Shown here in pieces: positions 19,442 through 40,206 of a stretch of 52,359 nucleotides of DNA. Every line of letters begins with the position of its first letter. The first letter of the stretch is position 1. The translations under genes were made by a program, and so were the position numbers. Below the pieces are notes generated by a model. It was not told where the DNA came from. It made no database searches and saw nothing but the letters and a program-made list of their open reading frames with translations. Source of the DNA: an uncultured Verrucomicrobia subdivision 3 bacterium (GTDB taxonomy: Bacteria; Verrucomicrobiota; Verrucomicrobiia; Limisphaerales; UBA11358); NCBI GenBank assembly GCA_903875465.1, contig CAIQWB010000152.1:1-52359 (forward strand), read 5' to 3'.

Positions 19442-20359
19442 TCAATGCAAAAACAACAGGTGATCCGTAAAACTGGTTGATCCCTTCTGGCTCGTCCGCA
19501 GCCACGTGGCCACCCCGTTGCTGTTCCACAACCCGCTCAGCCCATTGGAAATCACCATCTGGCACGTGGCATTTGTCGGCAACACGAAACCATTGGTCGC
19601 GGTGAAGGTTCCGCCCTCCGTCGCCCCGGTTTGATGCAGGGCAAACACGTTCGGATAAATCCCCTGGTCGATCGAGAAGGGCAGGCTGCCCGCCACATAA
19701 TCATAAAACTGAAAATTGTGCGGTGGATTTTCATTCGCCGTCAGGATCCATTTATAATTTGACCCATTGGGCACCAGGGCGAAGGAGGCATTCCCATTGA
19801 GCGAACCATCCTCGTTCGTAATGGTGATGGCCGGGGTGATAAAACCCGTGGCGGTGTTCGTGGAAAACCCAAAATAAGTCCCCATGCCCGTCCCCGTCGG
19901 TGCGGTGTTCGTTACGATAAATCCCGTCCCATTCGTCGCCGTCAACTGGGGCACTCCCAACGTCACCGCCAGCGTGCCATTGCTATTGGTACGCGTCGTT
20001 ACCAGCACATTGTTGCCTCCGTTGACCGTCACGATGAAATTGGTGTTCCCATTGTTCAGGTTGGTAAGCTGGCTCAGAAACCAGGCATTACTCACCGCCT
20101 GGGCATTCAAGACGGCCACGATGGTATTGTTGTTATTATTCACCTTGCTCCAGGCGAGGGAGTTCGAATCCACCCCGATGTTAACATTGGTAATCGTCCA
20201 TGCCCGCGCCGAATTCATGAGCAAAAAACCTCCCGCTAGCAACCCCATCCCGGTGGCCCGCCAGCGGAACGGAGAGCCAAACTGACTCGCGCTTTCGAAT
20301 CTCCTGAAGTTAAGTTCCTGCTTCCGCTTCCTGTCGTCCATTTTCTGGTTCATTTTCAT
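19442..20359 (-). CDS. exported Asn/Thr-rich protein at the end of the phage block
   Basis: A 305-residue protein with a long basic N-terminus, a hydrophobic stretch (about residues 34-51, ATGMGLLAGGFLLMNSA) and a possible signal-peptidase site ARA before WTITNVNIG. The rest is rich in Asn, Thr and Gly (VNNNNNTIVAVLNAQ, TNLNNGNTNFIVTVNGG) and looks like beta-structured surface protein. No family is recognised. ATG at 20,359 overlaps the stop of the upstream Cys-rich gene by 4 bp, linking it to the phage operon by translational coupling. That link is the main reason to count it with the block, because the sequence itself looks like a host surface protein or a fibre-like decoration. Confidence 0.6.
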   Translation of the reverse strand: MKMNQKMDDRKRKQELNFRRFESASQFGSPFRWRATGMGLLAGGFLLMNSARAWTITNVNIGVDSNSLAWSKVNNNNNTIVAVLNAQAVSNAWFLSQLTNLNNGNTNFIVTVNGGNNVLVTTRTNSNGTLAVTLGVPQLTATNGTGFIVTNTAPTGTGMGTYFGFSTNTATGFITPAITITNEDGSLNGNASFALVPNGSNYKWILTANENPPHNFQFYDYVAGSLPFSIDQGIYPNVFALHQTGATEGGTFTATNGFVLPTNATCQMVISNGLSGLWNSNGVATWLRTSQKGSTSFTDHLLFLH

Positions 20360-20628
20360 AGTTCTAATCGCTTGGGGACCCACCTTGGCCAGTGCCCGGC
20401 CGGGCACTGCTGGAAGGCCAGTTTTACGGTTTGGGTTAAATCTTTTTGGCAGCAGCCAAATAAGCGGCAATGTCCGCCTGCGTTGCTTTCACAAGCCGCA
20501 CAAATCGCCAGCCGCTGATCGGCAACTTCCGCCGGGGCGGCCATTGGTTTCACGGCCGGGGGCTGCGACGTGGCCACCTTCGCATGGTTCAATGCTTTAA
20601 CTCTTAACGATGGCAGGGCGTGGCTCAT
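20356..20628 (-). CDS. small Cys-rich protein, phage tail region
   Basis: A 90-residue protein whose second half carries six Cys and two His, mostly in CxxC-like or paired positions (RLAICAACESNAGGHCRLFG, then CCQKDLTQ and QQCPAGHWPR), probably a zinc-ribbon fold. Similar small Cys-rich proteins ending in CP-GHW are often found near tail genes of phages. The role is unknown. Its ATG overlaps the stop of the 1,118-residue gene (ATGA at 20,628-20,625) and its stop overlaps the next start in the same way, so three genes form a coupled chain. Confidence 0.7.
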   Translation of the reverse strand: MSHALPSLRVKALNHAKVATSQPPAVKPMAAPAEVADQRLAICAACESNAGGHCRLFGCCQKDLTQTVKLAFQQCPAGHWPRWVPKRLEL

Positions 20629-23600
20629 GTCAGGCCATCTCCGGTATTGCCCGTATTCGTGTTCAGGTTCGGCACCCCCGCCGTCACCGCCGGTGCGTAA
20701 CTCCTCACGCACGGCAGATTTTCCGCCTCCATGTAATTGAACCGGCAGCTACCACACGTGGCTTCGATGGCCTCGCGATAGCCCCACAAGGTCCAGGCCG
20801 GCGTGGGCAGGCCACTGTTTGGGTCAAACCCGATCTGCCCCGGTGCCCCCAAACCGTCGGCATCGGTAACCGGCGAGCGATATCCAATCCCCGTGGGCGG
20901 GGTTGGTGCCGTCAGACTCTCACTGTTCCCGCCATAATTGGGCACACGGCTGCGCGCCTCCACCAGGGGCGGATGGGCAAATTCCAGCGTGCACGTCCCG
21001 TCATCCGGCCGCCAGGTGCCGTCGCTACCACAAGGGATATGCGGTGATTGCCACAAGAGATCGACCATCGCCTCTTCCAACTCCGCCTGCCACCGTGCCC
21101 CGTAGCGGCCGTCAAAATTGAAGACCGAGGGGAAGGGGACAGTCGTACCATTCGTGAACGTTTCTCCGTTGGGCGAAATGCAGAGCGCCATGGCGCAGCA
21201 GGGCTTGAACGCCAAACCCGTGGTGTGCTCATACTGGGTTTGGGTGAACCCCGCGTACCCGTAATTCATCGCGGGCACCCCGGCCGCCGGTGGCGTGTTA
21301 CCCGCGCAGTCCGTCACGGTGGCGAGGCGCGCAGCCTCGCCGTTCGTGCGATAATCAAATGTCCAGTCCAGGCAAACCCAGTCGCCTTTGCGCCCATTGT
21401 CATCCCACGACCAGTCCGGCGCGCCCTGGCTCATGATGTATTGCGTGCCGCCAATTGTGCCATACGCGGCCGTCACTTTTACGTGCGTGCTGTCCACCAC
21501 CGTCGCCGTGAGATTCGCGGCCAGACTGGTCATCGCCTCACTCACCCGGTTCCCGTTGCCATCGTAAGTGATGTTGCTGCTCAACAGGTCAATCTTGTCC
21601 CCCGTAAGCAACCAGTTTTCCGCCGCCGCGAGGGTCAGTGTTACCGTCCCGTCGTGATTATCCGTCACCGCACTCACCGCATCACGCCCCAGAATGGCCG
21701 GCGCCGTCGGATTCCGCAGCCGGCCAAACACCGTGGCCGTGTCACCACTGGCGCTGGCCCAGGTGGCGGGCAGGGCGAGGACCAGCGCGCCCAGTGTCAC
21801 TGTGCTGCCGCTCACCGTAATGTGGTAAAACCCGCCGACACTAAAACCGCCCCACACACTGCCGCTTGGCGGGCTCAACGTGATCGGCGTTCCCGTATAA
21901 TCGGTGATGGTAAAGGTGCCACCCGTCGTCGGTGAGGTGAGCCCGGAAACACAACCCACGTTCCCGGCCGTTTCATCGTAAGCAAAACGGTCCGCCCCCG
22001 CCGGCCGAAAGAAATTATAGCTGGGCCACAATTCCGGAAAGATCACGCATTTCTGGGCCCAAACCGCATCGTTGTGATGCGCCAGCGTGGCGGGCGGACC
22101 CGCATAGACTTGCGCATCACCTTGAATCAAATAGGCAAACGCCGGCTTGCTGAAAGCATCGAAATAATTCGTCCACTGGGTGGCGTTGAGGGGCAATTGC
22201 GCCCCGGTTTCATCAATCACATCCTGCAACCACTGGCCGTACCCCTGGAGATACCAGTCCAGGTAAGTCCCCCCGCCGGCGCTGTACTGGCACGAACGCC
22301 AGACCTCCGCTCGAAAATCAAAATAATTCTGATAACCCGCCGGATTGGGCGCGCCCAGCACCGCGCCCGTCAAACCAAACTGCACCAGGGCCATGGCCGC
22401 GCTGTTGCTCTGGTCATAACCATCCGGGAAGGTAAATCCCCAGGCATTGGGATCAAACCACGATATTTGACTGTAGGTCGGCACCCACGCCGCCGGGCCT
22501 CCATAGCCCGGACTGCCATCGGCATTGCCGCTGGCATCATTGTTGTTCGGACGGTACGTCCATCCCGGTGGCGGCGGATTCTCCGGCGTGGTAAACGGCG
22601 CGTTGCCCCGCCCATCATTGACCGGCGAGCGATAGTCATCCACCAAGGGGGGCGGGAATGTCACTGGCGAAATATTCCCGTGCGCCTCATCCCGTGACAT
22701 CCGGGGCGCGATTTGCCACACGCCATCTGTGCGCGGCGGATATTGCGCGTCATTCGTCAAATCCCAGGCCGCCAGCAATCCCTGCACATCCGTGTAAACC
22801 GCCCCGGCGGTGTTCGGGCCTGCCAAGGTCACGGTGAGCGTCCAGGTGGCGGATCCGCCATAGGCAATGGTGTTGGTATAATTTACCAGGGGCGTGCCAT
22901 GCACGGGATAACCACCTGTCCCCGTGGTCACGATCGTGGCCGGCGGCGACAGCGTCAGCACAATCTCCAGCACCGTGGCCGAAAGGGTGTAGGTCGTCAG
23001 GCTCAGGATAAAAACGCCACCCCCCGGACTGCTGGCATTGTAAGCCGCAATTGCCGCCGCCAGCGTGGTGGCATTCCCGCTCCAGCCCGTGCCCGGTCCC
23101 ACCCCCGGAATCGGCGCGCCACCAAAACTCACCCCGCCGCAATTCGCCGTCCAATTTCGCACACAATAATCCGGATTCAGTCCGGGAAAACTCATGATCC
23201 CGCCATCCGCCACCGTGGTTGGTCCGGCATCCCCATAGATGGGATCCGCCAATTGATAAGCATAGGCCAGGCTGTCCGCCGCTGAGTGGCTGATCAATTC
23301 CAACAATCCGGAATTTGGATCCACCGCCATGGCCTGCGCCGCCGTTTTGGTCCCGGTCCAGGCTTCCGTCGTCACGGCGGTGTTGTAATGCCGTCCGTCG
23401 AGGTAACTGGCCTCCAGGGTGGTCGTGCGCTTGATGGCCTGGCTCAACGTGCAGGTGGCCGACACCGCCGTGTATTTCGTCTGGTCGGGTGCCGCTTGAT
23501 AACTCTCGTAATTCCGATAGGTGGTCACTCCGTCCACCGTGGTGGTGCACAGGGTGTCCGGACCACCGCTCGGATCGTGGGAATTAAACCCATAAGCCCC

Positions 23601-23981
23601 GTGCCATTGCCGGACCGCCTGCACCCATTTGCCCCCGCGTTTGCGGCAGCCCGCCCCAAAATCCACCGTGCCCTGCGCCACGAAAGTATTCGCCGGCGGC
23701 GTGGCAAATTGCTCGCTCCCCGGTCCGATCCACGGCAGTGGCGGCAACCCGTTGTCGGGATGCACTTCACAAACAGATCCCCCTGCCCGGGCCGTATAAC
23801 GCGTCAGTGGCGAACCCACCTCCCCTGGTTGCAACGTCACCTGCGTGGTGTTGCGAAAAGCCACCAGATCGTTGAGCGTGTCGTTCCGGTGCTGGTACAA
23901 CCCGCCCAGATAAGCCTTCGGCGGCACCGCCCAGCCATCCGCCGGCCGCCGCCAGGGTTTGCCATAACCTCCGCGTCTCAT
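20625..23981 (-). CDS. large Gly/Thr/Pro-rich protein of the phage tail region (1,118 residues)
   Basis: The largest gene of the block. The sequence is aromatic-, Gly- and Thr-rich with beta-type repeats, scattered Cys pairs (FKPCCAMALC, TCGSCRFNYME) and several RSPV(T/N)D motifs (DDYRSPVNDGRGNAP, IGYRSPVTDADG). No coiled coil, peptidase or lysozyme motif was seen, so it does not look like a tape measure. Placed after the hub-like gene, it could be a tail-tip or receptor-binding protein, but that is inference from position. ATG at 23,981 (MRRGGYGKP) is preferred; an in-frame ATG at 24,020 would make the first residues come from a word-like repeat at 23,985-24,079. Confidence 0.7.
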   Translation of the reverse strand: MRRGGYGKPWRRPADGWAVPPKAYLGGLYQHRNDTLNDLVAFRNTTQVTLQPGEVGSPLTRYTARAGGSVCEVHPDNGLPPLPWIGPGSEQFATPPANTFVAQGTVDFGAGCRKRGGKWVQAVRQWHGAYGFNSHDPSGGPDTLCTTTVDGVTTYRNYESYQAAPDQTKYTAVSATCTLSQAIKRTTTLEASYLDGRHYNTAVTTEAWTGTKTAAQAMAVDPNSGLLELISHSAADSLAYAYQLADPIYGDAGPTTVADGGIMSFPGLNPDYCVRNWTANCGGVSFGGAPIPGVGPGTGWSGNATTLAAAIAAYNASSPGGGVFILSLTTYTLSATVLEIVLTLSPPATIVTTGTGGYPVHGTPLVNYTNTIAYGGSATWTLTVTLAGPNTAGAVYTDVQGLLAAWDLTNDAQYPPRTDGVWQIAPRMSRDEAHGNISPVTFPPPLVDDYRSPVNDGRGNAPFTTPENPPPPGWTYRPNNNDASGNADGSPGYGGPAAWVPTYSQISWFDPNAWGFTFPDGYDQSNSAAMALVQFGLTGAVLGAPNPAGYQNYFDFRAEVWRSCQYSAGGGTYLDWYLQGYGQWLQDVIDETGAQLPLNATQWTNYFDAFSKPAFAYLIQGDAQVYAGPPATLAHHNDAVWAQKCVIFPELWPSYNFFRPAGADRFAYDETAGNVGCVSGLTSPTTGGTFTITDYTGTPITLSPPSGSVWGGFSVGGFYHITVSGSTVTLGALVLALPATWASASGDTATVFGRLRNPTAPAILGRDAVSAVTDNHDGTVTLTLAAAENWLLTGDKIDLLSSNITYDGNGNRVSEAMTSLAANLTATVVDSTHVKVTAAYGTIGGTQYIMSQGAPDWSWDDNGRKGDWVCLDWTFDYRTNGEAARLATVTDCAGNTPPAAGVPAMNYGYAGFTQTQYEHTTGLAFKPCCAMALCISPNGETFTNGTTVPFPSVFNFDGRYGARWQAELEEAMVDLLWQSPHIPCGSDGTWRPDDGTCTLEFAHPPLVEARSRVPNYGGNSESLTAPTPPTGIGYRSPVTDADGLGAPGQIGFDPNSGLPTPAWTLWGYREAIEATCGSCRFNYMEAENLPCVRSYAPAVTAGVPNLNTNTGNTGDGLT

Positions 23982-23984
23982 AAT

Positions 23985-24079
23985 AAGTGATGAGTGATGA
24001 GTGCCGAGAAACTGAGCCAATGACGTTCGCCCGGGTTTTCCCGCCCGTCACTCGCCACTGGTCACCTGTCACTCGTGAT
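23985..24079. repeat. GTGA-word repeat between two tail genes
   Basis: The plus strand reads AAGTGATGAGTGATGAGTGC near 23,985 and CACTCGCCACTGGTCACCTG then TCACTCGTG near 24,048. The 6-9 base words (AGTGATG, CACTCG, GGTCACC) are repeated in both orientations around a short non-repeated centre, so the whole can fold back. It overlaps the possible start of the 1,118-residue gene. Other word families occur elsewhere in the phage block. Confidence 0.6.
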
Positions 24080-24080: not shown

Positions 24081-26162
24081 TTATTCTGGGTTCGTCGACA
24101 AAATCGCCGCCTGCCGAATCGTCCCATCGTTCAAACACACCCTATACAACTGAAACTTCGCCGCCTGATTCGTTGTGCCGGCCGCAATAATGTCTCCCTT
24201 CGCCAGGGTGATTTGCGGTGCCGCCGGGTTTACCGCCCCCGTGCTATTCAGCACCTGCGCCAGCACCAGTTTTCCATTCACCGGATCGAATTGGATGGTA
24301 TTGGTTTTGGTGGCGTCACTGGCATCCGTGCCCGAGCAGATCTGCAATCCGTCATCCGGACTGGCGTGTGTGGAGTTTTCCTTGGCGGTGTCATCCGGCA
24401 TCGCCGCATTCACCCCGCCATTCGGCAGGCCGCTGCTGCGCTCATTGGGATTAATGCGCGCCAGGTCGCGATTTTGAAACAGGTTAAACAACTGCACCAG
24501 CTGGCCCGCCTCCAAATGTTCCACCGGACCACACCGCACCTGGGTTTTCGCACTCACCAGCCCGGTGTCCGGCGAATTCAGGCACTCAATCGTCACCTGC
24601 TGCACCATGGCATTCATGCTCCCCCAGGCACTGGCCCCGCCACTCACATTCAGTGCGTGCTTCCCCGGCTTGACGATCGTCGTCCAGGGTTGCTCCAAAA
24701 TCGTGTGGTTAAATTGGTACTGTAGCCGGCATAAACTGGTGTAAATCCCCTGCGCCAGCCCCGTTGGATATGCCTCCCCGCTGCTTAACACTGTGTTCAA
24801 GGTGTAGACCGCGCTCGGTGAATTGGTCAGTTTGAGCCGGAGCGGATGCGGATGGTTATTGTGCGTCCGAATCGACACCCACACCGGACTGGCGGCCGTG
24901 CCGATATTCTTCCGCCGTTGATAGGTAAAATGCCCCGTCACAATGGCTTTCGTCACCAGCACCGGCCCGCCGCCACTCAACTGCATCCAGCCATGCGCCG
25001 TCCCGTGGTCTTCCAGCACATAGGCATAAGTGCTTAAGTTGATGGCCGCCCCCGTTTCATCCACCACCGAGATGCAGTCTTTGCTCCCGTCGTTGAAGGC
25101 CGTGTTTAATAGCGCCAGCGACCCCGGCACCGTCTCTGGCTGGCCCAGGGCGGGCACCTTCAACTTCCACCAGCTCAAGTCTGTGGGATCAAAGGCCGTG
25201 CTCGTGATCCGGGCACTCACCTGCGTGGATTTCGGCCCCGTGATATCCAGGCTCACGTCCAGCGCCCGCAAACCACCCGCTACGGCCGGGTAAATATCCG
25301 TGCCCACACTCACCACCGTCTGCCCGGAAACCACGGAAGTTTCCTTGATAAAAATCCCCACCCGTGCCGGCACCAAATCCGGTCGCGGCCGGATCTGGCT
25401 CGTCAAATGAGTTTTGGTCACCCCACCGCTGGTGCTGCTCCCGGCATAGGGCAGCGTCACCGCCGTCAAGTTGCTGGTCTGCCGCACATGAAACGTCGGT
25501 GGGTTGGTGGTGTAATCAATTTCCGTCGTGCAATCCGGATGCGCTCGCAAACAATGTTTGATCGCTTCCGCGCACCGCACCGACCTTACCGGATAAAACG
25601 GCACATACAACGCCGGATCTATTTCCCCCACCTGTAAATTCACCCCCGCACTGATCGCGTAACTCAAGATTTCCACCAGCGCTTGCCCGGTGGTGATATG
25701 GGCATTCACCGCCGCCGGCGAATAGCTCACCCCCGGCGTCGCCTGAAACAATATGCAATCCGGCCAGCTCGCCGTCCCATAGGTGGGTGCGGCGATGGTA
25801 CCGCCGGTGATCGTCTGCCAGACCGCTTGCAGCGTCAGCCAGCGCAAATCGTACCAGGCATCCTCAATCGTCAATTCCGTGCTCGCCGTGGCCGCGCCCG
25901 CCTCCCCCAGATTGTCCGTTCTTCTCCCTTGGAACACGATCGTGCCACCCGTGTACGGCCCGTTTCCCGTCCTGCCCGTGTAGAGCGTGCAGGGTGCTTC
26001 AAACGGGATCGCCACCGCCAGTTCCGGGCCTTGTCCCCTCAGCGACAGGCTGACCGTCGATGGCCCGTGGGTGCCATAAGTAATGCGCCAGTCGCCCACC
26101 CCGAGCGCCGTGAGACTAATCTCCGTGGTTGTGCCTCCCACCGTGTAAGCCATGGTTTCCAT
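24081..26162 (-). CDS. tail hub/baseplate-like protein
   Basis: A 693-residue protein. The N-terminus resembles phage hub proteins of the gpD/gp44 kind: WRITYGTHGPSTVSLSLRGQ, APCTLYTGRTGN, then TIVFQGRRTDN and LTIEDAWYDLRWLTLQ. Later parts include repeated Thr/Ser-rich beta sequence, GQALVEILSYAISAGVNLQVG and a conserved-looking ending, LNDGTIRQAAILSTN. The family assignment is by pattern only. The ATG at 26,162 follows an in-frame TTG; MAYTVGG nine bases later is another candidate. It lies between the 234-residue coiled-coil protein gene and the 1,118-residue gene, where a hub would be expected. Confidence 0.6.
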   Translation of the reverse strand: METMAYTVGGTTTEISLTALGVGDWRITYGTHGPSTVSLSLRGQGPELAVAIPFEAPCTLYTGRTGNGPYTGGTIVFQGRRTDNLGEAGAATASTELTIEDAWYDLRWLTLQAVWQTITGGTIAAPTYGTASWPDCILFQATPGVSYSPAAVNAHITTGQALVEILSYAISAGVNLQVGEIDPALYVPFYPVRSVRCAEAIKHCLRAHPDCTTEIDYTTNPPTFHVRQTSNLTAVTLPYAGSSTSGGVTKTHLTSQIRPRPDLVPARVGIFIKETSVVSGQTVVSVGTDIYPAVAGGLRALDVSLDITGPKSTQVSARITSTAFDPTDLSWWKLKVPALGQPETVPGSLALLNTAFNDGSKDCISVVDETGAAINLSTYAYVLEDHGTAHGWMQLSGGGPVLVTKAIVTGHFTYQRRKNIGTAASPVWVSIRTHNNHPHPLRLKLTNSPSAVYTLNTVLSSGEAYPTGLAQGIYTSLCRLQYQFNHTILEQPWTTIVKPGKHALNVSGGASAWGSMNAMVQQVTIECLNSPDTGLVSAKTQVRCGPVEHLEAGQLVQLFNLFQNRDLARINPNERSSGLPNGGVNAAMPDDTAKENSTHASPDDGLQICSGTDASDATKTNTIQFDPVNGKLVLAQVLNSTGAVNPAAPQITLAKGDIIAAGTTNQAAKFQLYRVCLNDGTIRQAAILSTNPE

Positions 26163-26233
26163 ATCGAATGAAATCAACTCGTTCGCCCTCTAATAGCCCT
26201 TGGGATGATTCCCGTTCCGCCCCTCGCCCTTGC

Positions 26234-26938
26234 TCATTGCCGGTTAAAGGCCACGTTCCCAGCTTGCGCCCGCAACCTCCGCAGTTGCTCCGCCAGCTCC
26301 TCCAACTTGGCCTGCTGGGTGCGCTGGATGTTTGCCGCGGTCTGCAATGCCTCCGTCAAGGTGTCGAACATCTGTTCGCTGCGTGCGGCCTGGTGCCTCC
26401 AGGAGTCGTGCCAGGCCTGGAGGCGATGCCAGGCTTCCAGCGTGCCCGGCCCTTCCGCCGGTTCCCCTTGCCAGGTTTGTCTCCTCGGCATCGGCTTGAC
26501 CTCGCCGTCGTGTGTCTCTGTTGGCTGCCGGTTCGCGTCAAATCCAGTTGCGTCCCCATTGTTCCGTTCCTCCGGTAATGGCGTCCGCTTCGACCCCGCA
26601 GCCGCTCCCGCCGGCACCTCGGCCAATGGAATAATCTTGGGCTTCTCGTCTGCCGGCCGATTCAGCAACTCTCCAACCGGTGCTTCCCCTCTGGCCGGCG
26701 CCTCCGCCCCCGCCATTTCCGTTCGCTCGACCCCTTGGGTGTGCCTGCTTCCTTCCCCACCGGGTAAACCCCCAAAGTCCAGCGCCGCCTGCGGCTGTCC
26801 CCCGGTTGCCATCGTTGCTTCGGCTGATCTCGGTGGCGTTGCCTCCGGAGTGCTTTCCTCGACTCGCCGTTCTCCCCGTTCTGCCCTTGCCGGGATAACG
26901 TCACTTTCCTCCGGCGCCGGTTGATTTTCGTCATTCAT
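26234..26938 (-). CDS. disordered protein with C-terminal coiled coil, phage tail region
   Basis: A 234-residue protein. Residues 1-160 are Pro/Glu/Gly/Ala-rich and probably disordered. The last 70 residues are helical with heptad character (MFDTLTEALQTAANIQRTQQ, KLEELAEQLRRLRAQ). It occupies the slot between tail-tube and hub genes where a tape measure is normally encoded, but it is far shorter than any tape measure. It could be a minimal tape measure, a tail chaperone or an accessory protein. ATG at 26,938 (MNDENQ) or 26,950. Confidence 0.55.
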   Translation of the reverse strand: MNDENQPAPEESDVIPARAERGERRVEESTPEATPPRSAEATMATGGQPQAALDFGGLPGGEGSRHTQGVERTEMAGAEAPARGEAPVGELLNRPADEKPKIIPLAEVPAGAAAGSKRTPLPEERNNGDATGFDANRQPTETHDGEVKPMPRRQTWQGEPAEGPGTLEAWHRLQAWHDSWRHQAARSEQMFDTLTEALQTAANIQRTQQAKLEELAEQLRRLRAQAGNVAFNRQ

Positions 26939-26968
26939 GGTCGGCAGCATGGTTGTTTCGCGGCTGTC

Positions 26969-32087: not shown

Positions 32088-32144
32088 GTTAGTTTTATGG
32101 TTTGGTTGTAATGTTTGGAAAAAATGGTTCAAGTCGTCTGAAAA

Positions 32145-32450: not shown

Positions 32451-32460
32451 AGGGCAGTTT

Positions 32461-32505: not shown

Positions 32506-33117
32506 TCAAAATTGCTTCGGCAGTAATTTGGCGGCCAGCCCCGCATATTTGGGCAGGGTCATAATATTGTTGTGCGCCCGCGCCGGATTCTGACCCGTGG
32601 CCATGAGTTCGGTTTGAAAGGCCAGGTTGTATTCGCTTTGGAGCAGTTGTTGTTCATTGGCCAGGCCGGCGTTTTGTTTGCCACTTTGCACTTCCTGGCC
32701 GGCGATCTTGACCACCGTGGCGCCATTCAACAGGGTTTGGGCCGCGAGCTCAAAATCCGGACTGTTCGCCAGGCTGGTGATCTGGGCATCCCGCAGGGCC
32801 ACGGTGGTTTTGCCCCGCTGAATGGCGAGGTCCGTGATGGCCTCCGCCCGGCCTTGCCGCTCGGATTGCCGCCCCAGCGTTTCCTTGGCCAGCGCCGTCG
32901 CGGCGGCCTCCGCTTGTTGTCGGAAACCGTCCCGCTCGGTTTCCAAGGTCGTGAGCCGGCCACTGAGGGATTGGCGTTCGTTGCCCAGCGCGGTGAGTTG
33001 GGTGGTCGATGTCGTGTGCCAGGCTTGCAACGCCGCGAGCACCTCCGTTTCGTTGGGGTTTTCGGTATTGGCCAGGGCGCCGCCCTGGGCCAGCAGCCAG
33101 CCAGTAATCAGTTTCAT
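32506..33117 (-). CDS. possible internal scaffold gene (nested start in the protease gene)
   Basis: An in-frame ATG at 33,117 begins MKLITGWLLAQGGALANTEN, a gene-like start, at the point where the disordered linker of the longer protein ends. It would give 203 residues with a long coiled coil (QSLSGRLTTLETERDGFRQQ) and the scaffold-like ending AKLLPKQF. In phage Mu the protease gene I contains an internal start for scaffold Z; this fits the same arrangement. The DNA before the ATG (AACCATCCGCAAACCGAC) looks like the intergenic leaders of other genes here. It is inference without expression evidence. Confidence 0.4.
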   Translation of the reverse strand: MKLITGWLLAQGGALANTENPNETEVLAALQAWHTTSTTQLTALGNERQSLSGRLTTLETERDGFRQQAEAAATALAKETLGRQSERQGRAEAITDLAIQRGKTTVALRDAQITSLANSPDFELAAQTLLNGATVVKIAGQEVQSGKQNAGLANEQQLLQSEYNLAFQTELMATGQNPARAHNNIMTLPKYAGLAAKLLPKQF

Positions 33118-33999
33118 GTCGGTTTGCGGATGGTTATGGATTAGTTCGGTTTTATCGTTGGCTAAATCGGGCCGGGCAGGGACCGGGTCCACCTGGCCTC
33201 CGTTCCCAGCCGGCGGCATGGCTTCCGCCGCCGGTTCTTGCGGAGCGCGGACTTCAGTCCGCCTCAACGTCGCCGCGCTCTCCACCGTTGCGGTGTTGTG
33301 ATCCCCGTTGGCCTCTTCATGGGCGCTTGCGGCTTGGCGCTTCTCTGGAGCTTGGCGGTTGGAATTGGGTGTTTCCTCCTCCCCGCCGGCTGTGCCAGTT
33401 TCCGCATTCGCCAGCGATTCCACTCCCGCAATATTGGGAAACGGCGTCAGTGCCACTGAAATCAATTTGAAAGGCCGGCAGCGTATCGCCCCCGTGGCTT
33501 CTTGCTGCCTGCTGCCTGCTGCACTCCCCATCGGCCGGACGTACCAAAAGCTGCTCGGAAATTTCCAGCCCGCCCCGACCGCCGCCGCCCCCTCCGCATC
33601 CAGCGCAAAGTGCGCCTCCAGTCCGCGCGCCCCTTTGCGGATTTGATCCACCACACCCAGCTTGATTTTGTCGCCCCCGCCCGCGATCGCCTGTGGATCC
33701 ACCTCCGCCAGATCCCCGTGCCCCTTGAACACCGGCACCCCAATGAACGCCCGCTTCAGCCGGCCGAACAGCGAATGTTCTTTCGCCAGTAACGCCTCGG
33801 CCGCCACGTCATCCAGCACTTGCACGAATTTCTGCTCCCGCACCCGCCCGCCCTCGCGATACACCCGCGTCTTGGGCCATTCGCCAAAGGGCGCAATCAA
33901 GCACCAGCCGTCCTCCGCCAGCCCAGGGGAATTGTCCAAAGCCCAATGCCCAAGGTCTGCTGTTTGAAGGGTGGTGGTTATGTCTGAATTCTTGTTCAT
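32506..33999 (-). CDS. Mu I-like prohead protease/scaffold protein
   Basis: A 497-residue protein. The N-terminal 190 residues match Mu-like prophage I (PF10123 type) proteases: DGWCLIAPFGEWPKTRVYRE, AFIGVPVFKGHGDLAEVD, then WKFPSSFWYVRPMGS and CRPFKLISVALTPFPNIAGV. The middle (about 195-295) is a Pro/Ala/Glu-rich linker encoded by repeat-derived DNA. The C-terminal 200 residues form a scaffold-like coiled coil with an internal start candidate at 33,117. Start ATG 33,999 has AGGA 7 bp upstream and is preferred over 34,005. The protease should process the scaffold and mature the head. Confidence 0.78.
   Translation of the reverse strand: MNKNSDITTTLQTADLGHWALDNSPGLAEDGWCLIAPFGEWPKTRVYREGGRVREQKFVQVLDDVAAEALLAKEHSLFGRLKRAFIGVPVFKGHGDLAEVDPQAIAGGGDKIKLGVVDQIRKGARGLEAHFALDAEGAAAVGAGWKFPSSFWYVRPMGSAAGSRQQEATGAIRCRPFKLISVALTPFPNIAGVESLANAETGTAGGEEETPNSNRQAPEKRQAASAHEEANGDHNTATVESAATLRRTEVRAPQEPAAEAMPPAGNGGQVDPVPARPDLANDKTELIHNHPQTDMKLITGWLLAQGGALANTENPNETEVLAALQAWHTTSTTQLTALGNERQSLSGRLTTLETERDGFRQQAEAAATALAKETLGRQSERQGRAEAITDLAIQRGKTTVALRDAQITSLANSPDFELAAQTLLNGATVVKIAGQEVQSGKQNAGLANEQQLLQSEYNLAFQTELMATGQNPARAHNNIMTLPKYAGLAAKLLPKQF
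33247..33262. repeat. REP-like palindrome inside the protease gene
   Basis: GCGGACT and AGTCCGC flank two bases, forming a 7-bp hairpin within the context CGGAGCGCGGACTTCAGTCC. It is read in frame as RRTEVRAP in the protease linker. A related sequence is read in the same frame in the portal gene (34,415-34,443). Confidence 0.7.
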
Positions 34000-34036
34000 A
34001 ATCATATCCTGGGTTAAAAGCTAAAAGTGCTGGAGC

Positions 34037-35740
34037 CTAAGCCGGCGGAGCGTCCTGCCCCTGCGCCACTTGCGACTTTGGACCTTGGACTTGGGACTGG
34101 TACTTCTTCCGCCCCTGCGCCGCGCGACTATTGCTCAGTCCGGCCAGGCGCAGGTGTTGCAATTCGCCATCCTCCCGGCTGCCGGCATCCTTCGCCGTCG
34201 CATAACCCCGGCTCGGCTTGGGCAGCGTCTGGCCATCCTCCTTCCGCCGGTTTGGAACTTGCGACGTTGGGCCTTGGACTGTCCCCATCCCCGCCCGGCT
34301 CCAAAAGGCGGCGGCGGCTTGCGGATCCGGCATCTGGGACGAGGCCGTTTGGATGGCCCCCGGCTCCGCACCCCGGGCAATGGCCTGGTCGGGGTACTGG
34401 ATGCCCGCCCCCATCGGAGCGCGGGTTTCCGTTCGATCCGCCTCCTGCGGGGCTGCAGTTGGGGTTTTGGCATTGGAAGTTTCCGGCGTTGCCGGCTCTG
34501 CCCCCGCGACTGGCGGTGCCAGACACGGATCCTCCTCCGCCGGCACCCGCCACCGAAACCGCTGGTACACATCCTTCAACGCCACGCGCAACCCCAGCGG
34601 CACCAGCGTTTGCAGTGCCGTCAGATCCTCGGCTCGATAATCCCCGGGCGGGGGCATCAGCACGAACCACGCGCGCGGTTCCGCCCCAAAGAGGTAACGG
34701 AGAATGGGGCGGTCGATCCGTTCGTTAAAAACCCCGGTAACCCACTTCGCGTCCCGCCCCAGGAAGATCCCCGACTCTTCTTTTTGAATGCTTGCCCCCA
34801 CCGGCGGATGGCCCGGTCCGTTGTTCAGACCGTTCTGGTGATGACGCACGCCCGTGGCCAGGTCGATCCCCCGGTAACACTTCGCGTAGAGCGAGTTGCA
34901 CCATTGGACCATGGGCTCGAAGGGCAGGGCATTGCGGGCCGATTGTTCCAGAAACTTGAACATCACACTCTCGTTGTGGAGCACGGCGCCGTCGTTCGCC
35001 AGGGTATGCATCGCGGTCAGGGCCTGGTTCCACTCGTCGGTGCCGGTCTGCGCCGTCGTTTGGGCATCCAGAAATCCGCTGCCGTAGCGTGCATTGAAGA
35101 GGTTCCAGTCGCGCAGGGCGAACGCTTTCAGAGTAAAGATGAGGCAGAGCGGGCGCATCCAGCCGCAGTTCACCGCCGTGAGCCACTCGCCGCGCAGACA
35201 AGGCTGGCCGTACACATCGAAGATGTGCTGGAGATACCCCAGGTAACCGCGCCGCGCCTCGAAGAACCAGACCGGCGTATGCCGGAATTCGCACGTGACC
35301 TCCCGGGCCGCCGGGTTGTCGATCCGGAGCAACATCTCATGTGCCGAGTAATAGTGATCCAGCGCCGACAACGTCTGATAGATCAGCTCATCCGTGCCGC
35401 CGGTGGCGTCCTGGTCGAGCGCCCGGGTGGCCGTGAGGTGATCGTAAAAATATTGCAGCGCCAGCGCGTGACGATCGCCCGCCAGCGAACCATCGCTGAC
35501 CACCTGCCAGTCCAGCCCGGCGGCGTCCGCCTTCCGCTTGTCGGAATTCACCGCCAGCTCCGCGTCCCGCTCCAGCATGGTTTCCCAGGTCTTCCCAATC
35601 ACCCGCAATTCGCCAATGCGAAACGCATTGAGCTGGCTGGTGATGAGCTTCATGTCCAGCTCCGGCAACGGCGAGTAGCGGAGTCGGATCGCCCATTCGA
35701 TGCGGGCCTGGTTGAAATGGCTTTGACCGGTTGAATTCAT
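34037..35740 (-). CDS. Mu gp29-like portal protein (DUF935 type)
   Basis: A 567-residue protein. Residues about 1-400 form the portal core: WAIRLRYSPLPELDMKLITS, ELRVIGKTWETMLERDAELA, then WLTAVNCGWMRPLCLIFTLK, AFALRDWNLFNARYGSG and GRDAKWVTGVFNERIDRPIL. The last 160 residues are Pro/Ala/Gln-rich, probably disordered, and encoded by word-like repeats (SQVQGPKSQVAQGQ, TVQGPTSQVPNRRKEDG). The portal forms the DNA entry ring at one capsid vertex. The ATG at 35,740 has a strong GGAGGT ribosome site 9 bp upstream. Homologues usually end soon after the core, so the tail looks like an added extension. Confidence 0.8.
   Translation of the reverse strand: MNSTGQSHFNQARIEWAIRLRYSPLPELDMKLITSQLNAFRIGELRVIGKTWETMLERDAELAVNSDKRKADAAGLDWQVVSDGSLAGDRHALALQYFYDHLTATRALDQDATGGTDELIYQTLSALDHYYSAHEMLLRIDNPAAREVTCEFRHTPVWFFEARRGYLGYLQHIFDVYGQPCLRGEWLTAVNCGWMRPLCLIFTLKAFALRDWNLFNARYGSGFLDAQTTAQTGTDEWNQALTAMHTLANDGAVLHNESVMFKFLEQSARNALPFEPMVQWCNSLYAKCYRGIDLATGVRHHQNGLNNGPGHPPVGASIQKEESGIFLGRDAKWVTGVFNERIDRPILRYLFGAEPRAWFVLMPPPGDYRAEDLTALQTLVPLGLRVALKDVYQRFRWRVPAEEDPCLAPPVAGAEPATPETSNAKTPTAAPQEADRTETRAPMGAGIQYPDQAIARGAEPGAIQTASSQMPDPQAAAAFWSRAGMGTVQGPTSQVPNRRKEDGQTLPKPSRGYATAKDAGSREDGELQHLRLAGLSNSRAAQGRKKYQSQVQGPKSQVAQGQDAPPA
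34415..34443. repeat. REP-like sequence inside the portal gene
   Basis: The plus strand reads CGGAGCGCGGGTTTCCGTTC, then GATCCGCC, a diverged relative of the palindrome at 33,247. It is read in frame as DRTETRAP, matching RRTEVRAP in the protease linker. Confidence 0.5.
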
Positions 35741-35798: not shown

Positions 35799-37196
35799 TC
35801 ATAAAACCACCTCCGCTGTCGCCCGCCCCATCCCCATATTCCCCGCCGTGGTCCGCGGACTCAACGGCCGCGCGAACGCCACCGGTCCGCCCCCCGTCGT
35901 GCCCGCTCGCAGCGCCAGCGCCAGCGCCGTCGCGCGATCCGCATGTCCCCCATCCGAGTGCGGCGCCCGGTACGTCACCCCGCCCGCCGCCAGGGCCACC
36001 CGGCACAGTGAATGCAAATCCTCCCGCACCTTCCGGTCGCTGGGAATTCCCACCAGCCGTTTCTCAAACGCCACCCGCAACGCTGGAAACAATTCCAGCT
36101 TCAGGCTGTTCGTGAAGGCGCACAGTTCAATCTTCCCAAACTGGTGCTGCTGCGGATGGTATTCCCCCCAGCCCTCCTTGCGCGCGACCAGCAAATCTCC
36201 CAGCCCAATCCCCGGCCCCGTGTAATCCACGCACACCCGCCGCGCCCGTTGGATGCGCGGCCGCAAAATCTCCAGCTGCTCCGGCGTCGGCACATTCTGA
36301 ATTTCCAGCACCTCGCGCGTCAGGGCATAGCCCCCGCCCGTCAATTCCAGCGTCCAGCACACCGTCAAATCCCGCTTCCGGCCAAAATCTATCCCGCACA
36401 CCAGCGGCGCCCCGCCGCGACCCGCCCAAAATTCCGGCTCCACCTTCATCGTCGCCCGGTCATTTTCCCCAGTGGCAATCAGTTCATAGGGCAGCAACAC
36501 CGTCGCGCCATCCATGAACTGGCATTCATACTCCTGGGCCCAGCCCTCCGGATCATCCAGCCCCGCCTTCACTTCCTCAATGTTCAGCGGCAGCCCCTGG
36601 GCCACCGCGTCGTGAATATCCACCCGGTGCTTGCTCCAGTTATTGTCCTTCGTCCACAGATCGTGAAATTTGTTCGACCGCCCATTCGGCGTGCTGACGA
36701 TGCGGATTTTGAAGTCCCCCTTCAACGGGTTGGTGATGCTGGGATAAATCGCCCGCCAGATCGCCTCCGGGTCTTCATGGAACGCAAATTCATCCAGTAA
36801 CAAATTGGCGGAATAACCCCGCACCGTCGCCGGATTCGCCGGAATCGCAATGAGCCGGCTCCCGTTGGGCCAGATCATTTCCGCCTCTTTCAGTAATGTC
36901 TGCGGGCCGCCCGAGCGACGGGATTTGTGTCCCTCGATTGCCACCCCAAACGCGGCGTCGTGATCCTGTGCCTTGCGCAAGGTTTCCAGTGCTTGCCGTT
37001 CCCCGGCGCTCAGAATCACCCAGGTCGTCTTGCGCCTCCGGCAATCCAGCACCGCCTCCAGCGAGGTGGTAAAACTCTTGCCCGTCTGCCGCGCCCATAG
37101 CCCGATCTTAAACCGCGCCTCGTCCCGCACCCAGTCGCGCCCGTAAGGCTGCAAGCGGAGGATCGGACTCGTAAATGTTTTCAGCGCGGGTTCCAT
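35799..37196 (-). CDS. terminase large subunit (Mu gp28-like)
   Basis: A 465-residue packaging motor. The ATPase domain has Walker A WARQTGKS (34-41), Walker B NLLLDEFAF with DE at 135-136, and coupling motif STPNGRSN (168-175). The C-terminal RNase H-like nuclease has GIDFGRKRDLT (Asp270), VCVDYTGPGIGLGDLL and, near the end, GHADRATALALALRAG with the third acidic position. All motifs needed for DNA translocation and cleavage are present. It starts 2 bp after the small-subunit stop. The nuclease architecture fits headful packaging of Mu-like phages, so the particle, if made, could package host DNA. Confidence 0.9.
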   Translation of the reverse strand: MEPALKTFTSPILRLQPYGRDWVRDEARFKIGLWARQTGKSFTTSLEAVLDCRRRKTTWVILSAGERQALETLRKAQDHDAAFGVAIEGHKSRRSGGPQTLLKEAEMIWPNGSRLIAIPANPATVRGYSANLLLDEFAFHEDPEAIWRAIYPSITNPLKGDFKIRIVSTPNGRSNKFHDLWTKDNNWSKHRVDIHDAVAQGLPLNIEEVKAGLDDPEGWAQEYECQFMDGATVLLPYELIATGENDRATMKVEPEFWAGRGGAPLVCGIDFGRKRDLTVCWTLELTGGGYALTREVLEIQNVPTPEQLEILRPRIQRARRVCVDYTGPGIGLGDLLVARKEGWGEYHPQQHQFGKIELCAFTNSLKLELFPALRVAFEKRLVGIPSDRKVREDLHSLCRVALAAGGVTYRAPHSDGGHADRATALALALRAGTTGGGPVAFARPLSPRTTAGNMGMGRATAEVVL

Positions 37197-37198: not shown

Positions 37199-37750
37199 TT
37201 AAGCGCAGCCGTAAATTTCCTTGATCGCCTGCTCGCGTTCTTCAATGGTCATCGTTCGCTCCCCCAGCACTCGCTCTGTGCTGTCCGCCTGGGCCGCCTT
37301 CCGCTTGAGCAATTCCACCTTCTCCCGGTCCAGTAGCAGGGCTTGAAACCCCAGCTCCTGCTTCACCACCGCCAGTCCCAGTTTGAAGTCCCCCCGGACC
37401 GCCGCCCTCATATAAGCCTTTTTCAGCACCGCCGCCCGCGCTTCATCCAGCGACCACTCCGGATGTTCCAGCAGAAACCGCCGTTCATCCTCCTGTTGCC
37501 GTTCCGCCTCCAAATCTCGCTCCCGCTGGTCCAGCTCCCAGTCGCGAAACACATTCAATTGACCGTCACTTTCCAGGTTCACTGCAAACGTCGCCCGGAG
37601 TTGGTCCCGGATGTTTCTCTGGGTTTCCTGGGATAAAAATAATTCCTGCCAGTAAGCCCGCTGCTCCGGCGCTAACTTCAGCCACAACGCCTTGAGCTTG
37701 GTCATTGGCGCGTTCGCCCCCCCGCGAAATTTTTTCGGTTGATCGTTCAT
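37199..37750 (-). CDS. terminase small subunit-like protein
   Basis: A 183-residue, highly charged helical protein directly before the large subunit (2-bp gap): MTKLKALWLKLAPEQRAYW, ETQRNIRDQLRATFAVNLES, then the Arg/Glu-rich ERDLEAERQQEDERRFLLEH and EREQAIKEIYGC. Helix pattern and position fit the DNA-recognition small subunit. ATG at 37,750 has a GAGGGGGAG ribosome site. The DNA it recognises is not known. Confidence 0.7.
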   Translation of the reverse strand: MNDQPKKFRGGANAPMTKLKALWLKLAPEQRAYWQELFLSQETQRNIRDQLRATFAVNLESDGQLNVFRDWELDQRERDLEAERQQEDERRFLLEHPEWSLDEARAAVLKKAYMRAAVRGDFKLGLAVVKQELGFQALLLDREKVELLKRKAAQADSTERVLGERTMTIEEREQAIKEIYGCA

Positions 37751-37766: not shown

Positions 37767-38015
37767 TTAAAGTTCCGCGAGCACCGCCTCGCCCATGTCC
37801 CTCATGCTCCACAACCGGCCCTTGAACCGGCTCTGCCAGCCCATGATCCAGCCCGCCGCGTCGCATTTGGCCAGCGCCGCCTCGAATTCCGTGCGCGTGC
37901 AATCGTGCATCAGGTTTACCTCCGCATGCAGCGCGGAGTCGTTGATCTGGCCTCCCTCCAGTTCGTGGAGCACCAGCAGGATCGCTTTCCCAATTTTGAG
38001 TTCCTTTTTTGTCAT
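37767..38015 (-). CDS. small winged-helix-like phage protein, 82 residues
   Basis: MTKKELKIGKAILLVLHELE, then GGQINDSALHAEVNLMHDC, FEAALAKCDAAGWIMGWQSR, ending RLWSMRDMGEAVLAEL. The helix-helix-helix-strand look resembles small winged-helix proteins found near terminases of Mu-like phages. The ATG at 38,015 overlaps the stop of an upstream open frame by 4 bp. It may bind DNA; no function is assigned. Confidence 0.65.
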   Translation of the reverse strand: MTKKELKIGKAILLVLHELEGGQINDSALHAEVNLMHDCTRTEFEAALAKCDAAGWIMGWQSRFKGRLWSMRDMGEAVLAEL

Positions 38016-38209
38016 ATAAATGGTGCGGATTTCGGAGCCGGGCGGTTGCGCCGCTTCGGCATTGAGGCCATGGATTGGGTTAAGCCCGCTCCCGCCCGCG
38101 CTCCGAAAAAGGTTTGTGGTGTTGTGTGGTGCGGCCGTTGGCCTGGCGGCGGCCCTCCCCGGGCGGCCCCCGCCCACGGCGCCCAACGGTTCGCCTCACG
38201 GTTCATCAA
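38012..38209 (-). CDS. possible 65-residue basic protein (uncertain)
   Basis: An open frame of 65 residues, Arg/Pro/Ala-rich, ending SMPKRRNRPAPKSAPFI. It overlaps the next start by the coupled ATGA at 38,015-38,012. The composition is low-complexity and no family is seen; it may equally be non-coding. It is included because the overlap is exact and it fills an otherwise empty 215-bp gap. Confidence 0.25.
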   Translation of the reverse strand: MMNREANRWAPWAGAARGGPPPGQRPHHTTPQTFFGARAGAGLTQSMASMPKRRNRPAPKSAPFI

Positions 38210-38230: not shown

Positions 38231-38623
38231 TCAGCGTTCCATCTCCTCGGCCGCCGGCACCCGGGCGCCCACTTTGCCGGCGATGGAAGCCAGCCCCACC
38301 AGCACCCGCTCAAACCGCGCATTGATATGCCGCAGGGTGCGGGCCCGGTCCTCCTGGATGGACCGCAGTTCCAGATCATGCGCCTCCAGCCGGCGTTCCA
38401 ATTCCGCCAGGCGGGCCTCCGTCGCCTCGTGGTTGTACCGGCGGGGCGCCTTGCGCACTTCTATCGGCGGCGCATCCGCCAGCTTTAGCGGCGCCGGACG
38501 GCGGAAGGCCACGATCAGGAAGCTCACCGCCCCCGCCACCCCCAGCAGCACGCAGAGGATCGCCAGCACCCACTTCAGCGTCGCCGCCGGAATGGCATCA
38601 AGAGTTTGTTGCGCCAGTAACAT
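38231..38623 (-). CDS. membrane-anchored coiled-coil protein (holin/spanin-like)
   Basis: A 130-residue protein with one N-terminal membrane helix (about residues 16-41, LKWVLAILCVLLGVAGAVSF), a basic linker and a coiled coil (about 62-108, HEATEARLAELERRLEAHDL). In the lysis region of phages such proteins act as holins or spanin parts; here it lies between the lipase and terminase genes. The function is inferred from topology and position only. Confidence 0.6.
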   Translation of the reverse strand: MLLAQQTLDAIPAATLKWVLAILCVLLGVAGAVSFLIVAFRRPAPLKLADAPPIEVRKAPRRYNHEATEARLAELERRLEAHDLELRSIQEDRARTLRHINARFERVLVGLASIAGKVGARVPAAEEMER

Positions 38624-38767: not shown

Positions 38768-39622
38768 CTAGCGTTCTTTTCCATCGGTGCGCTGCGCTTC
38801 CCGCAACGCCGCCACATACCGGTCCACGAAATGATCCGTGATCAGCACATCCTCCAGTCGGCGGTAAGCGCGGTACAGCCCCAGCGCGTCCGACACCAAG
38901 TGCCCCGCCAGGGAGGGATTCAGCACCAGCCTGCCCGTCACGTTGATAAACGCCTCCACCCCCGCGTGGTGATAACCCAGTAATACCCCCGGCACCCGGG
39001 GAACCACATCGTTTTGGTTCACCGCCCGGAAAGTCCTGGCGCCGAGCCGCGCCGCGTAAGCCTCGGCAAATGCCCGGTCCCCCACCCGCGGCTGGCCGAA
39101 GGTATAAACCGCCCGCACCGGGTAACCCAGGTTCGCCAGTCGGAAAGCCGCCAGCACTGCCAGTGCCCCGCCCAGGCTGTGGCCGGTGAGGACCATCGGT
39201 TTGCCGTCGCACACCACCGTCCCGCCGGTGGTCGCGCCCCCGCCCACCCGGGCCTGGATGGCTCCCAGCACCGACTCCACCGCCTGCCAAAAACCGGCAT
39301 GTACCCGGCCTTTCGTCCCCGGCAGCGAACGCAGGGGAAACTCCGCATCCGTAATCCAGTCCCGCAGACTGGCCGTCCCCCGAAACGCAATCACCGTGCA
39401 ATCCTCGTAGGCAGTTATCCGCGCATGCGTCCCCGTCGCCTGATTAAAGCAGCCGACCTGCGCAGCCTCCGCAACGTCCGCGGTGCCATCTATTACCGCC
39501 GAACCCTGCCCAGGCCCTGCCACCCCATTCCCCGCGCCATAAGCCGCCTGACTCTCCGCCACCAGCACCCTCGCATTCCCGAGCACAAACCCGGATTCAT
39601 TCAGTTGCAGATTGGATTTCAT
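38768..39622 (-). CDS. class 3 lipase in the phage lysis position
   Basis: A 284-residue alpha/beta hydrolase of the class 3 (fungal-type) lipase family. The nucleophile elbow is TGHSLGGAL (Ser149), the acid is in NQNDVVPRVP (Asp205) and the His is in ITDHFVDRY (His264), so the catalytic triad looks complete. The typical VYTFGQPRVGDRAF follows the elbow. There is no signal peptide. Phages sometimes encode lipases for host lysis, but here the neighbours are terminase-proximal genes and an exported protein, so a role in release or in lipid attack on recipients is possible. It is a sound enzyme by motif. Confidence 0.85.
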   Translation of the reverse strand: MKSNLQLNESGFVLGNARVLVAESQAAYGAGNGVAGPGQGSAVIDGTADVAEAAQVGCFNQATGTHARITAYEDCTVIAFRGTASLRDWITDAEFPLRSLPGTKGRVHAGFWQAVESVLGAIQARVGGGATTGGTVVCDGKPMVLTGHSLGGALAVLAAFRLANLGYPVRAVYTFGQPRVGDRAFAEAYAARLGARTFRAVNQNDVVPRVPGVLLGYHHAGVEAFINVTGRLVLNPSLAGHLVSDALGLYRAYRRLEDVLITDHFVDRYVAALREAQRTDGKER

Positions 39623-39708
39623 GTTAAATAACCCCCCTTGGTACGGATGTTCACTAATTGAGTACTGTCTTTAAATTCGCGGTAATTAACGTAATTCGCG
39701 GATACCCC

Positions 39709-40206
39709 TCACGGCTTCCCCGTCACCACCTTGATGGCATTCCCCAGCGCCGTGCCCCCCGCGCCAATGGCTCCCACCGTGTTCGTCGTAATGGTGCTGC
39801 TCACCTGGCCCACGCTAAAACTGTGCGCCCCGCCCAGCGCCGCCTGATTCGTCACCCCGCTCTGCACCTGGCTTGCCGCCGGATCCGTGAAAAGAAACGT
39901 GCCGCCGCCCCGGCTGCGATCCGTCCACGTTTCCCGGTACGCCACAAAAATGCGCGGCCCCGGCGTCAGCCAGCCTCCGGCCCGATTGGGTTCCCCGGGG
40001 AAGTGAAACCCCGCATAACCATTGGTCGTCATGCCCGGCAGCTCCAGACTGCCCACCGGCTCCACCACCCGCCAGCCCGACGGCACCGCCGCGCCATACT
40101 TCACCAGCTCATGAGTCGTCGTGGAGGTTTTCGCGAAATGCGCACAGCCCGGACCGGCCTGCGCCACAGATACAATGAAGAGGATGCCGAACTTGGATGT
40201 TTTCAT
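39709..40206 (-). CDS. exported hypothetical protein at the operon start
   Basis: A 165-residue protein with an N-terminal signal-like segment (MKTSKFGILFIVSVAQAGPG, with Cys following) that could be cleaved or lipid-modified, although the lipobox is poor. The mature part includes AVPSGWRVVEPVG, MTTNGYAGFHFPGE and RIFVAYRETW. It is the first gene of the block, right after the operator-like palindromes. No family is recognised. Confidence 0.55.
   Translation of the reverse strand: MKTSKFGILFIVSVAQAGPGCAHFAKTSTTTHELVKYGAAVPSGWRVVEPVGSLELPGMTTNGYAGFHFPGEPNRAGGWLTPGPRIFVAYRETWTDRSRGGGTFLFTDPAASQVQSGVTNQAALGGAHSFSVGQVSSTITTNTVGAIGAGGTALGNAIKVVTGKP

Follow-up and report, generated by a model that had tools for sequence, protein, structure and literature searches.

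Gene transfer agents (GTAs; viriforms such as RcGTA, BaGTA and BhGTA) are chromosomal phage head-tail operons in which phage regulation and replication genes are absent and for which vertical inheritance has been proposed; PMC9662315 evaluates three independently exapted groups with known genetics, two in Alphaproteobacteria and one in spirochaetes. For Verrucomicrobia, we found no paper on an element of this kind in searches on GTAs and Mu-like prophages, as judged by the titles and the beginnings of abstracts listed. Here we analyse a phage-derived block in a contig of 52,359 nucleotides (CAIQWB010000152.1, G000:C152; this whole stretch is termed the window) from an uncultured Verrucomicrobia subdivision 3 bacterium (assembly GCA_903875465.1). 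The block is a 20.8-kb uninterrupted minus-strand array of approximately 20 called open reading frames (ORFs) for head, packaging and tail functions (19442-40206), and is likely to be immobilised and under selection. Our preferred interpretation, held with somewhat more than even confidence, is that a Mu-type head-tail operon was immobilised in the ancestor of a clade, lost its early genes and several genes of the structural region, and has since been inherited mostly vertically under purifying selection, with regulation in trans and GTA-like particles as its product.

The window is the entire contig, one of 153 in a 5.3-Mb genome, and no assembled sequence continues beyond its ends. Host genes lie on both sides of the block, a pgl/histidine-phosphatase pair at its tail end and a cluster of DUF3566, PEP-CTERM (a label read from the sequence) and AMP-binding genes on the other side (41138-46624), and its G+C content of 0.613 is host-like (0.602 and 0.644). 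The same host genes occur in the same order on both sides, at 57-92% amino acid identity, in genome G043 of the same genus, including counterparts of the histidine-phosphatase ORF and pgl (57% and 71%). The first-pass annotation, made by a model from the letters of the DNA, had described an uninterrupted phage array between host genes and free of mobility or control genes. The ORFs bear out the array, and Pfam confirmed DUF3566 (PF12089) and the AMP-binding/hexapeptide gene in its flanks, whereas the ORF named as a histidine phosphatase had no Pfam match at E<=0.01.

As to mobility and control, the block contains no recognised mobility, repressor, replication or tape-measure gene, in agreement with that description. 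No tblastn match in the window was obtained for early-region ORFs from seven contigs, namely C31, which belongs to the same genome, and contigs of G026, G092, G141, G163, G010 and G132; Pfam scans of 21 block proteins, 20 of which were also compared with PHROGs, gave no integrase match, most flank ORFs falling outside these scans; the window has no tRNA; and the longest direct repeat between 19150-19500 and 40200-41300 was 9 nucleotides, which is chance level (null median 9, maximum 12). A PF09299 search for MuA returned zero matches in 17 genomes and in controls, and was thus uninformative. An integrase-type prophage was set aside on the missing integrase match, repeats and tRNA, and a transposable Mu-like prophage, with MuA and MuB linked to the structural genes, on the missing early-gene match in the window. 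An ordinary prophage whose early region lies off the contig was rejected because at either end of the block the contig passes into host genes that are arranged as in G043. Early-type genes were observed in C31, G026, G069, G092, G141, G163 and G293, and some in G188 and G157. C31 is a Mu-like phage on a 42.9-kb contig (L010-L012) with MuB (PF09077) and a divergent early operon (ParB-like, transposase candidate); transposases of phrog_310 are present in the phage relatives G323 and G324, and the transposase candidates of C31 and G321 gave no transposase match in the PHROG scan.

A second lineage was found in IMG/VR, where a capsid search returned nine contigs, seven of which were compared. The closest, G320 (IMGVR_UViG_3300029922_002676; 26,044 bp), has the gene order of the window block, with 57-89% identity in 16 of 20 gene pairs and lower values for the large (TerL, 30%) and small (TerS, 40%) terminase subunits and for the genes at 26234 (40%) and 19442 (49%). 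Its right end encodes the N-terminus of the AMP-binding host gene found next to the window block, with its orientation conserved, and the assembled side between block and flank gene holds PEP-CTERM-type genes and non-coding DNA only, with no early-type gene. In a flank-gene tree (14 sequences, 214 columns) G000, G043 and G320 form one clade with a support of 1.00, the order inside which is not resolved (0.749). Further scans with tube and hub gave no other contig above 55% identity, a TerL scan of genome contigs and a pgl scan of viral contigs gave no relative, and a TerL scan of viral contigs gave one 25% match. The IMG/VR contig L145, found via the flank gene, was dropped as a different phage beside a 55% homologue.

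Upstream of the first gene, each copy carries a pair of palindromes with a spacing of exactly 147 bp (-377/-230 for the window, -410/-263 for G320). The three central bases differ, and three of the four palindromes have the longer arms CGTTTC/GAAACG. The motif has two sites in the 52-kb window against 0.03 expected; genome-wide, 10 sites in 5.3 Mb against seven for the reversed control revealed no regulon or regulator, and the eight sites outside the window all fall within predicted ORFs.

Absences are shared as well. Genes of 311 and 222 amino acids stand between the homologues of gp36 and of the 28477 gene in G322, G326 and G327, of which the last two are phage contigs of 39-41 kb; we guess these genes to be F- and G-like, and those of G326 have no Pfam match. 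In G326 and G327 a 460-amino-acid gene occupies the tape-measure place, before the hub. Neither the window nor G320 matches any of the three genes, and the gene order leaves no space for them; other G326 genes, more variable among the phages, are likewise unmatched. The 460-amino-acid gene has no PHROG match and, among the contigs tested, matches G327 only, so that similarity alone is no proof of its absence elsewhere. In the PHROG scan the tape-measure-place genes of G326, G323 and G010 had no match, and that of G038 (388 amino acids) matched tape-measure families. The protein in this slot has 238 amino acids in the window, 327 in G320 and perhaps 209, weakly conserved, in G159. A short tail is possible, since the RcGTA tape measure is itself short (113+83+20 residues, approximately 216 in sum; PMC7296036); that the 238-residue protein acts as the tape measure is a guess.

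Selection was estimated (Nei-Gojobori) for 16 window-G320 gene pairs (5212 codons), a set that leaves out TerS, TerL and 26234, which are exchanged or partly alignable, and 19442, which is partial in G320 (omega 0.65). Nonsynonymous divergence (dN) was 0.191 and synonymous divergence (dS) 0.892, giving an omega (dN/dS) of 0.215 (bootstrap 0.194-0.235) with an upper bound below 0.54 for each of the 16 genes. Block dS per gene (0.58-1.24) is similar to that of host genes, namely 0.59 for the flank gene against G320 and 0.30-1.16 for 11 window-G043 ORF pairs, two of uncertain strand. All 16 ORFs are open in both lineages, whereas neutral simulation at half this dS introduced a mean of 2.9-31 stops per gene, with a zero-stop chance of at most 0.05 for any gene. 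For this one pair of lineages the pattern expected of domestication in the first-pass annotation (conserved position, intact frames, low dN/dS) is thus found. The other outcome it entertained, a slowly decaying remnant without function, finds some footing in the loss of the early region, tape measure and other genes and in the patchy presence described below; it is hard to reconcile with 16 of 16 frames open across genus-level divergence if both copies come from one insertion, and we consider it very unlikely.

The two copies are most simply explained by a single insertion that was thereafter inherited mostly vertically, because their dS matches that of the host, their neighbour is shared and so are their absences. 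The main rival holds that related Mu-type phages inserted twice, independently, at a hot spot and were each truncated later, the low omega stemming from selection on free phages. The interval is indeed variable, G320 has other genes in the stretch from block to flank gene, TerS and TerL differ, and phages of this capsid family are present in the order. Two insertions would, however, have to arrive at the same orientation and host neighbour, the same absence of early genes and of the 311-residue, 222-residue and tape-measure-position genes, the same 147-bp palindrome pair and a dS roughly equal to that of the host, and we therefore regard this rival as unlikely. The TerL of the window shares 59-63% identity (tblastn) with its counterparts in G069, G141, G092 and G190, whereas that of G320 shares 61-64% with those in G322, G324, G326 and G327; because the two resemble different sets, TerS and TerL were exchanged with the surrounding genes retained, most simply in the window lineage. 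That the motor was replaced yet remains open suggests that packaging matters.

Several observations weigh against immobilisation in a clade ancestor with mostly vertical inheritance and GTA-like function. The portal has a match in four of 49 genus genomes, the own genome included, and the capsid in 16 of 320 order genomes (E <1e-180 in G000, G010 and G157, 4.5e-101 in G188 and 1e-33 to 1e-49 in the other 12); the best portal match, G010 (66%), has mainly the portal-to-capsid part in common; its terminase is a different one, and its tape-measure place is occupied by a gene. The block is missing from G043, the genome nearest by the flank gene, whose interval consists of 13 kb (G043:C84:20190-33471; L070/L071) that include an FGE-sulfatase gene and encode type I restriction-modification, and where no block or early protein matched (one 43-amino-acid stretch, E=0.01, lies outside the interval). 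In ten other genus genomes with the flank gene, neither a block protein nor the DUF3566 gene was found in the 2.4-18 kb around its upstream side. Nor was the DUF3566 gene seen in the stretch that separates the block from the flank gene in G320, whose tail-side flank is unassembled. The TerS/TerL type differs between window and G320, and such an exchange means that inheritance is not purely vertical; no canonical tape measure was found in either. Carbon content, for which RcGTA has a bias, is mixed, lying below every phage relative measured for four of ten proteins (lipase, hub, tube and the 28477 product) and higher for the capsid and the 26969 product. Patchy presence with random insertion sites had been put forward beforehand as a mark of an ordinary prophage, and this is seen in part: the portal counts, the G043 island and the ten genomes without a block protein amount to a patchy presence.

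Under the preferred interpretation, a Mu-type phage would have integrated in the ancestor of the clade and lost its transposase, MuB, repressor and replication genes. A regulator encoded elsewhere may act at the two palindromes upstream of 40206, so that the single operon would be activated in a subset of cells. Proheads would form from the portal, the capsid and the Mu I-like protein, and the TerS/TerL motor would pack them by headful with whatever DNA is available, because no genome of its own would replicate or excise. A short tail would then join, perhaps with the 238-residue protein in place of a tape measure, and the lipase and the small membrane protein would free the particles. GTA-like action is plausible.

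The block would be a helper-dependent element if a resident Mu-like phage, G000:C31 for instance, mobilised or induced the structural operon in trans. C31 has MuB and a divergent early operon, and it shares a lipoprotein and a lipase with the block, one of them with an 86-bp stretch of 83% nucleotide identity. The two shared proteins are, however, just 38-46% identical, a portal and other structural ORFs are already present on C31 itself, and no repeats lie at the block ends; this explanation seems to us very unlikely. Particles that transfer no DNA, in the form of tail-less or stub-tailed heads for storage, killing or decoy, would suit the missing tape measure and the reduced relatives that have been retained (the G184/G185 head genes and the G248-G253 capsid cassette, below). 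We think this distinctly unlikely, given that the genes for the portal and for the tube-, hub- and fibre-like proteins are intact and selected and that the terminase frame is open. A tailocin, with tail genes but neither capsid nor terminase, was rejected on the presence of terminase and portal and of a weakly supported capsid.

The features are collected in Table 1. The large terminase subunit and DUF935 portal named in the first-pass annotation are backed by Pfam, the former by PHROGs as well, and the TerL sequence contains the stretches RQTGKS, LLLDEF and GIDFGRKRD, which we take to be its motor and nuclease motifs. Its Mu I-like protein and capsid held up in part, with matches that are below cut-off and weak, respectively. 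The tail assignments follow from gene order and relatives alone, and so the tube-like and hub-like labels agree with position and relatives, but neither protein had a meaningful PHROG or Pfam match. A PHROG scan of 11 capsids and eight tubes gave a single weak match overall and none for the tubes, a PDB sequence search with capsid and tube profiles gave no match, and the AlphaFold models were of no use, with a mean pLDDT of 37 for the capsid and 29 for the tube. Genes with a secretion-signal-like start, judged by eye, lie within head or tail modules at 29808-30416 and 19442-20470 of the window and at L010:10671-14457 and L008:5709-7258; such starts are odd for virion proteins, which are made in the cytoplasm.

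Table 1. Coordinates of the block, its surroundings and the reduced capsid cassettes (window positions unless a locus is named; omega and identities refer to G320 unless stated)
Feature	Position	Strand	Evidence
Operon upstream control region, two palindromes GTTTCTCAGAAAC	40424..40583	-	sites 40424-40436 and 40571-40583, 147 bp apart
First gene, lipoprotein-like	39709..40206	-	73% identical; relatives in own C31 phage, G027, G038, G157
Class 3 lipase, phage-borne	38768..39622	-	PF01764 E=3.4e-32, phrog_21992; 57%; omega 0.275
Small membrane protein	38231..38623	-	holin-like as a guess from sequence and position; 74%; omega 0.35
Small protein preceding terminase	37767..38186	-	57%
Terminase small subunit (TerS)	37199..37750	-	position; 40%
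Terminase large subunit (TerL)	35799..37196	-	PF03237 E=1.1e-19, phrog_2 E=6.6e-38
DUF935/Mu-type portal	34037..35740	-	PF06074 E=2.1e-35; 76%; omega 0.141
Mu I-like protease/scaffold	32506..34005	-	PF10123 E=0.0018, below cut-off; 69%; omega 0.158
Small head-region protein	32145..32546	-	66%
Putative capsid partner, decoration-like	31509..32132	-	adjoins capsid in 8 loci; matched in 5 of 6 capsid cassettes
Major capsid protein	30403..31470	-	weak phrog_1005 E=0.0067; position; 89%; omega 0.088
Signal-peptide-like start, within head module	29808..30416	-	sequence; 72%
Head-completion-like, gp36-type by position	29301..29729	-	omega 0.173
Tail-completion-like by position, C-terminal CHB_HEX_C_1 domain	28477..29232	-	PF13290; omega 0.249
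Tail-tube-like by position	27449..28405	-	86%; 55% in G326; omega 0.157
Small tail-region protein	26969..27418	-	89%; omega 0.099
238-residue protein, tape-measure slot	26234..26950	-	low-complexity start, conserved C-terminal part; 40%
Hub/baseplate-like by position	24081..26177	-	76%; 42% in G326; omega 0.202
Large distal tail/fibre-like by position	20625..24020	-	66%; pieces 25-32% in G159
Cys-rich small protein	20356..20712	-	phrog_13558 E=7e-6; PF19668 (DUF6171) E=0.014
Last gene, secreted-looking	19442..20470	-	49% over 129 amino acids
Host pgl and histidine-phosphatase-like genes, tail end of block	18006..19408	-	same order in G043
Host flank gene, AMP-binding and hexapeptide	42551..46624	+	flanks block in window and G320
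Capsid cassettes of genus g95	L196:10455-12475; L198:2763-4327; L201:161-1724; L202:2434-4423; L203:2289-4370		G248, G249, G251, G252, G253; also G250

Other blocks without early genes occur in the order. That of G027 and G038 (L092:5099-20950 on G027:C36; L090/L091, G038:C40:51138-71899) has a TerL 52% identical to that of the window, 82-90% nucleotide identity between the two genomes, and the same TPR gene with its neighbour adjoining it in both; 14 clear gene pairs have an omega of 0.03-0.28 at a dS of 0.13-0.99, and 11 host ORF pairs a dS of 0.15-0.53. Against a shared site, the flanks cease aligning beyond the TPR gene, and one protein of the tail-side flank of G038 is unmatched in G027, whose own tail-side flank is unassembled. 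G159 carries a collinear block that host-type genes flank at either end; on its 5.5-kb contig, G160 has the stretch from terminase to portal and an upstream region resembling that of G159, beyond which the alignment of the two ends. G184 (L083/L084, G184:C73:47551-53852), beside host genes, runs from terminase to capsid and then into ORFs without a recognised tail gene; in G185 (L204:15029-17385, G185:C7) I-like, decoration-like and capsid genes reach to the contig end on one side, and pilin- and other host-type genes follow the capsid on the other, again with no tail gene recognised; the capsid omega is 0.124. G263 gave no early-gene match, and for G007, G160 and G190 the contigs are of insufficient length for a judgement.

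A still smaller unit, a decoration-like and a capsid gene between plain host genes, is present in six genomes of genus g95 (G248-G253) among the matches listed, with a small membrane protein in three of them and a capsid 27-31% identical to that of the window. Flanks are syntenic inside subclades (G248/G252; G249/G250/G251), and no other block protein of the window matched on the cassette contigs, three of which are only 4-7 kb. Omega was 0.04-0.15 for the capsid and 0.15-0.35 for the decoration gene (10 pairs each from five genomes, G250 being left out as 98% identical to G249). The cassette looks like an encapsulin-style domesticated capsid, and together with the G027/G038, G159/G160 and G184/G185 blocks it hints at repeated domestication. 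A tentative extension, to which we give appreciably less than even weight, is that Mu-type capsid operons have been domesticated repeatedly and to varying degrees across the order, the window block being an independent GTA-type exaptation that arose from a transposable phage and whose motor was swapped after domestication. Should the window block prove to be a Mu-type head-tail operon that was domesticated and had its motor swapped, it would allow the conversion of phages into host tools to be tested independently and would represent a candidate route by which bacteria that are mostly uncultured exchange genes; the graded series, from whole operon down to capsid cassette, would give a view of what selection retains.

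Among known systems, GTAs are defined in PMC9662315 by six features: particles made of Caudoviricete-derived proteins, a cargo of mostly random host DNA, full endogenization in the host genome, an own genome that cannot be packaged in full, mostly vertical inheritance in step with host diversification, and delivery of the packaged DNA to other cells. The block, known here from its genes, shows two: Caudoviricete-derived particle proteins (the TerL, portal and I-like matches) and an endogenized genome (host genes on both sides in G043 order, no early-gene match). For vertical inheritance, the two carriers agree in neighbour and dS, the block is absent from G043 and ten others, and the terminase was exchanged. 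A short tape measure, as in RcGTA, may be a further likeness; unlike GTAs, whose portals fell outside this comparison, the block has a DUF935 portal and a Mu I-like protein, belongs to another phylum, had its terminase exchanged and is mixed in carbon content. The Mu-like Alteromonadaceae phage B23 (KY939598) has TerS, TerL (41.5% identical to that of the window), a portal-place protein, I protein and head protein in the same order. The window differs from Mu-like phages such as B23 in having no early-gene match and, by gene order, neither an F protein between portal and I nor a tape measure. Also related are the IMG/VR contigs G321-G324, G326 and G327 and contig G010:C101, with portals at 52-60%, capsids at 66-78%, and decoration-like and I-like genes; they differ from the block in that MuA- or MuB-like genes are present in G321-G324, a portion of an early region in G010, and a gene in the tape-measure place in G326, G327 and G010. 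Encapsulins, finally, are HK97-fold capsids used by their hosts. The g95 cassette resembles them as a phage capsid relative kept by the host, whereas the window block retains in addition a packaging motor and tail-region genes.

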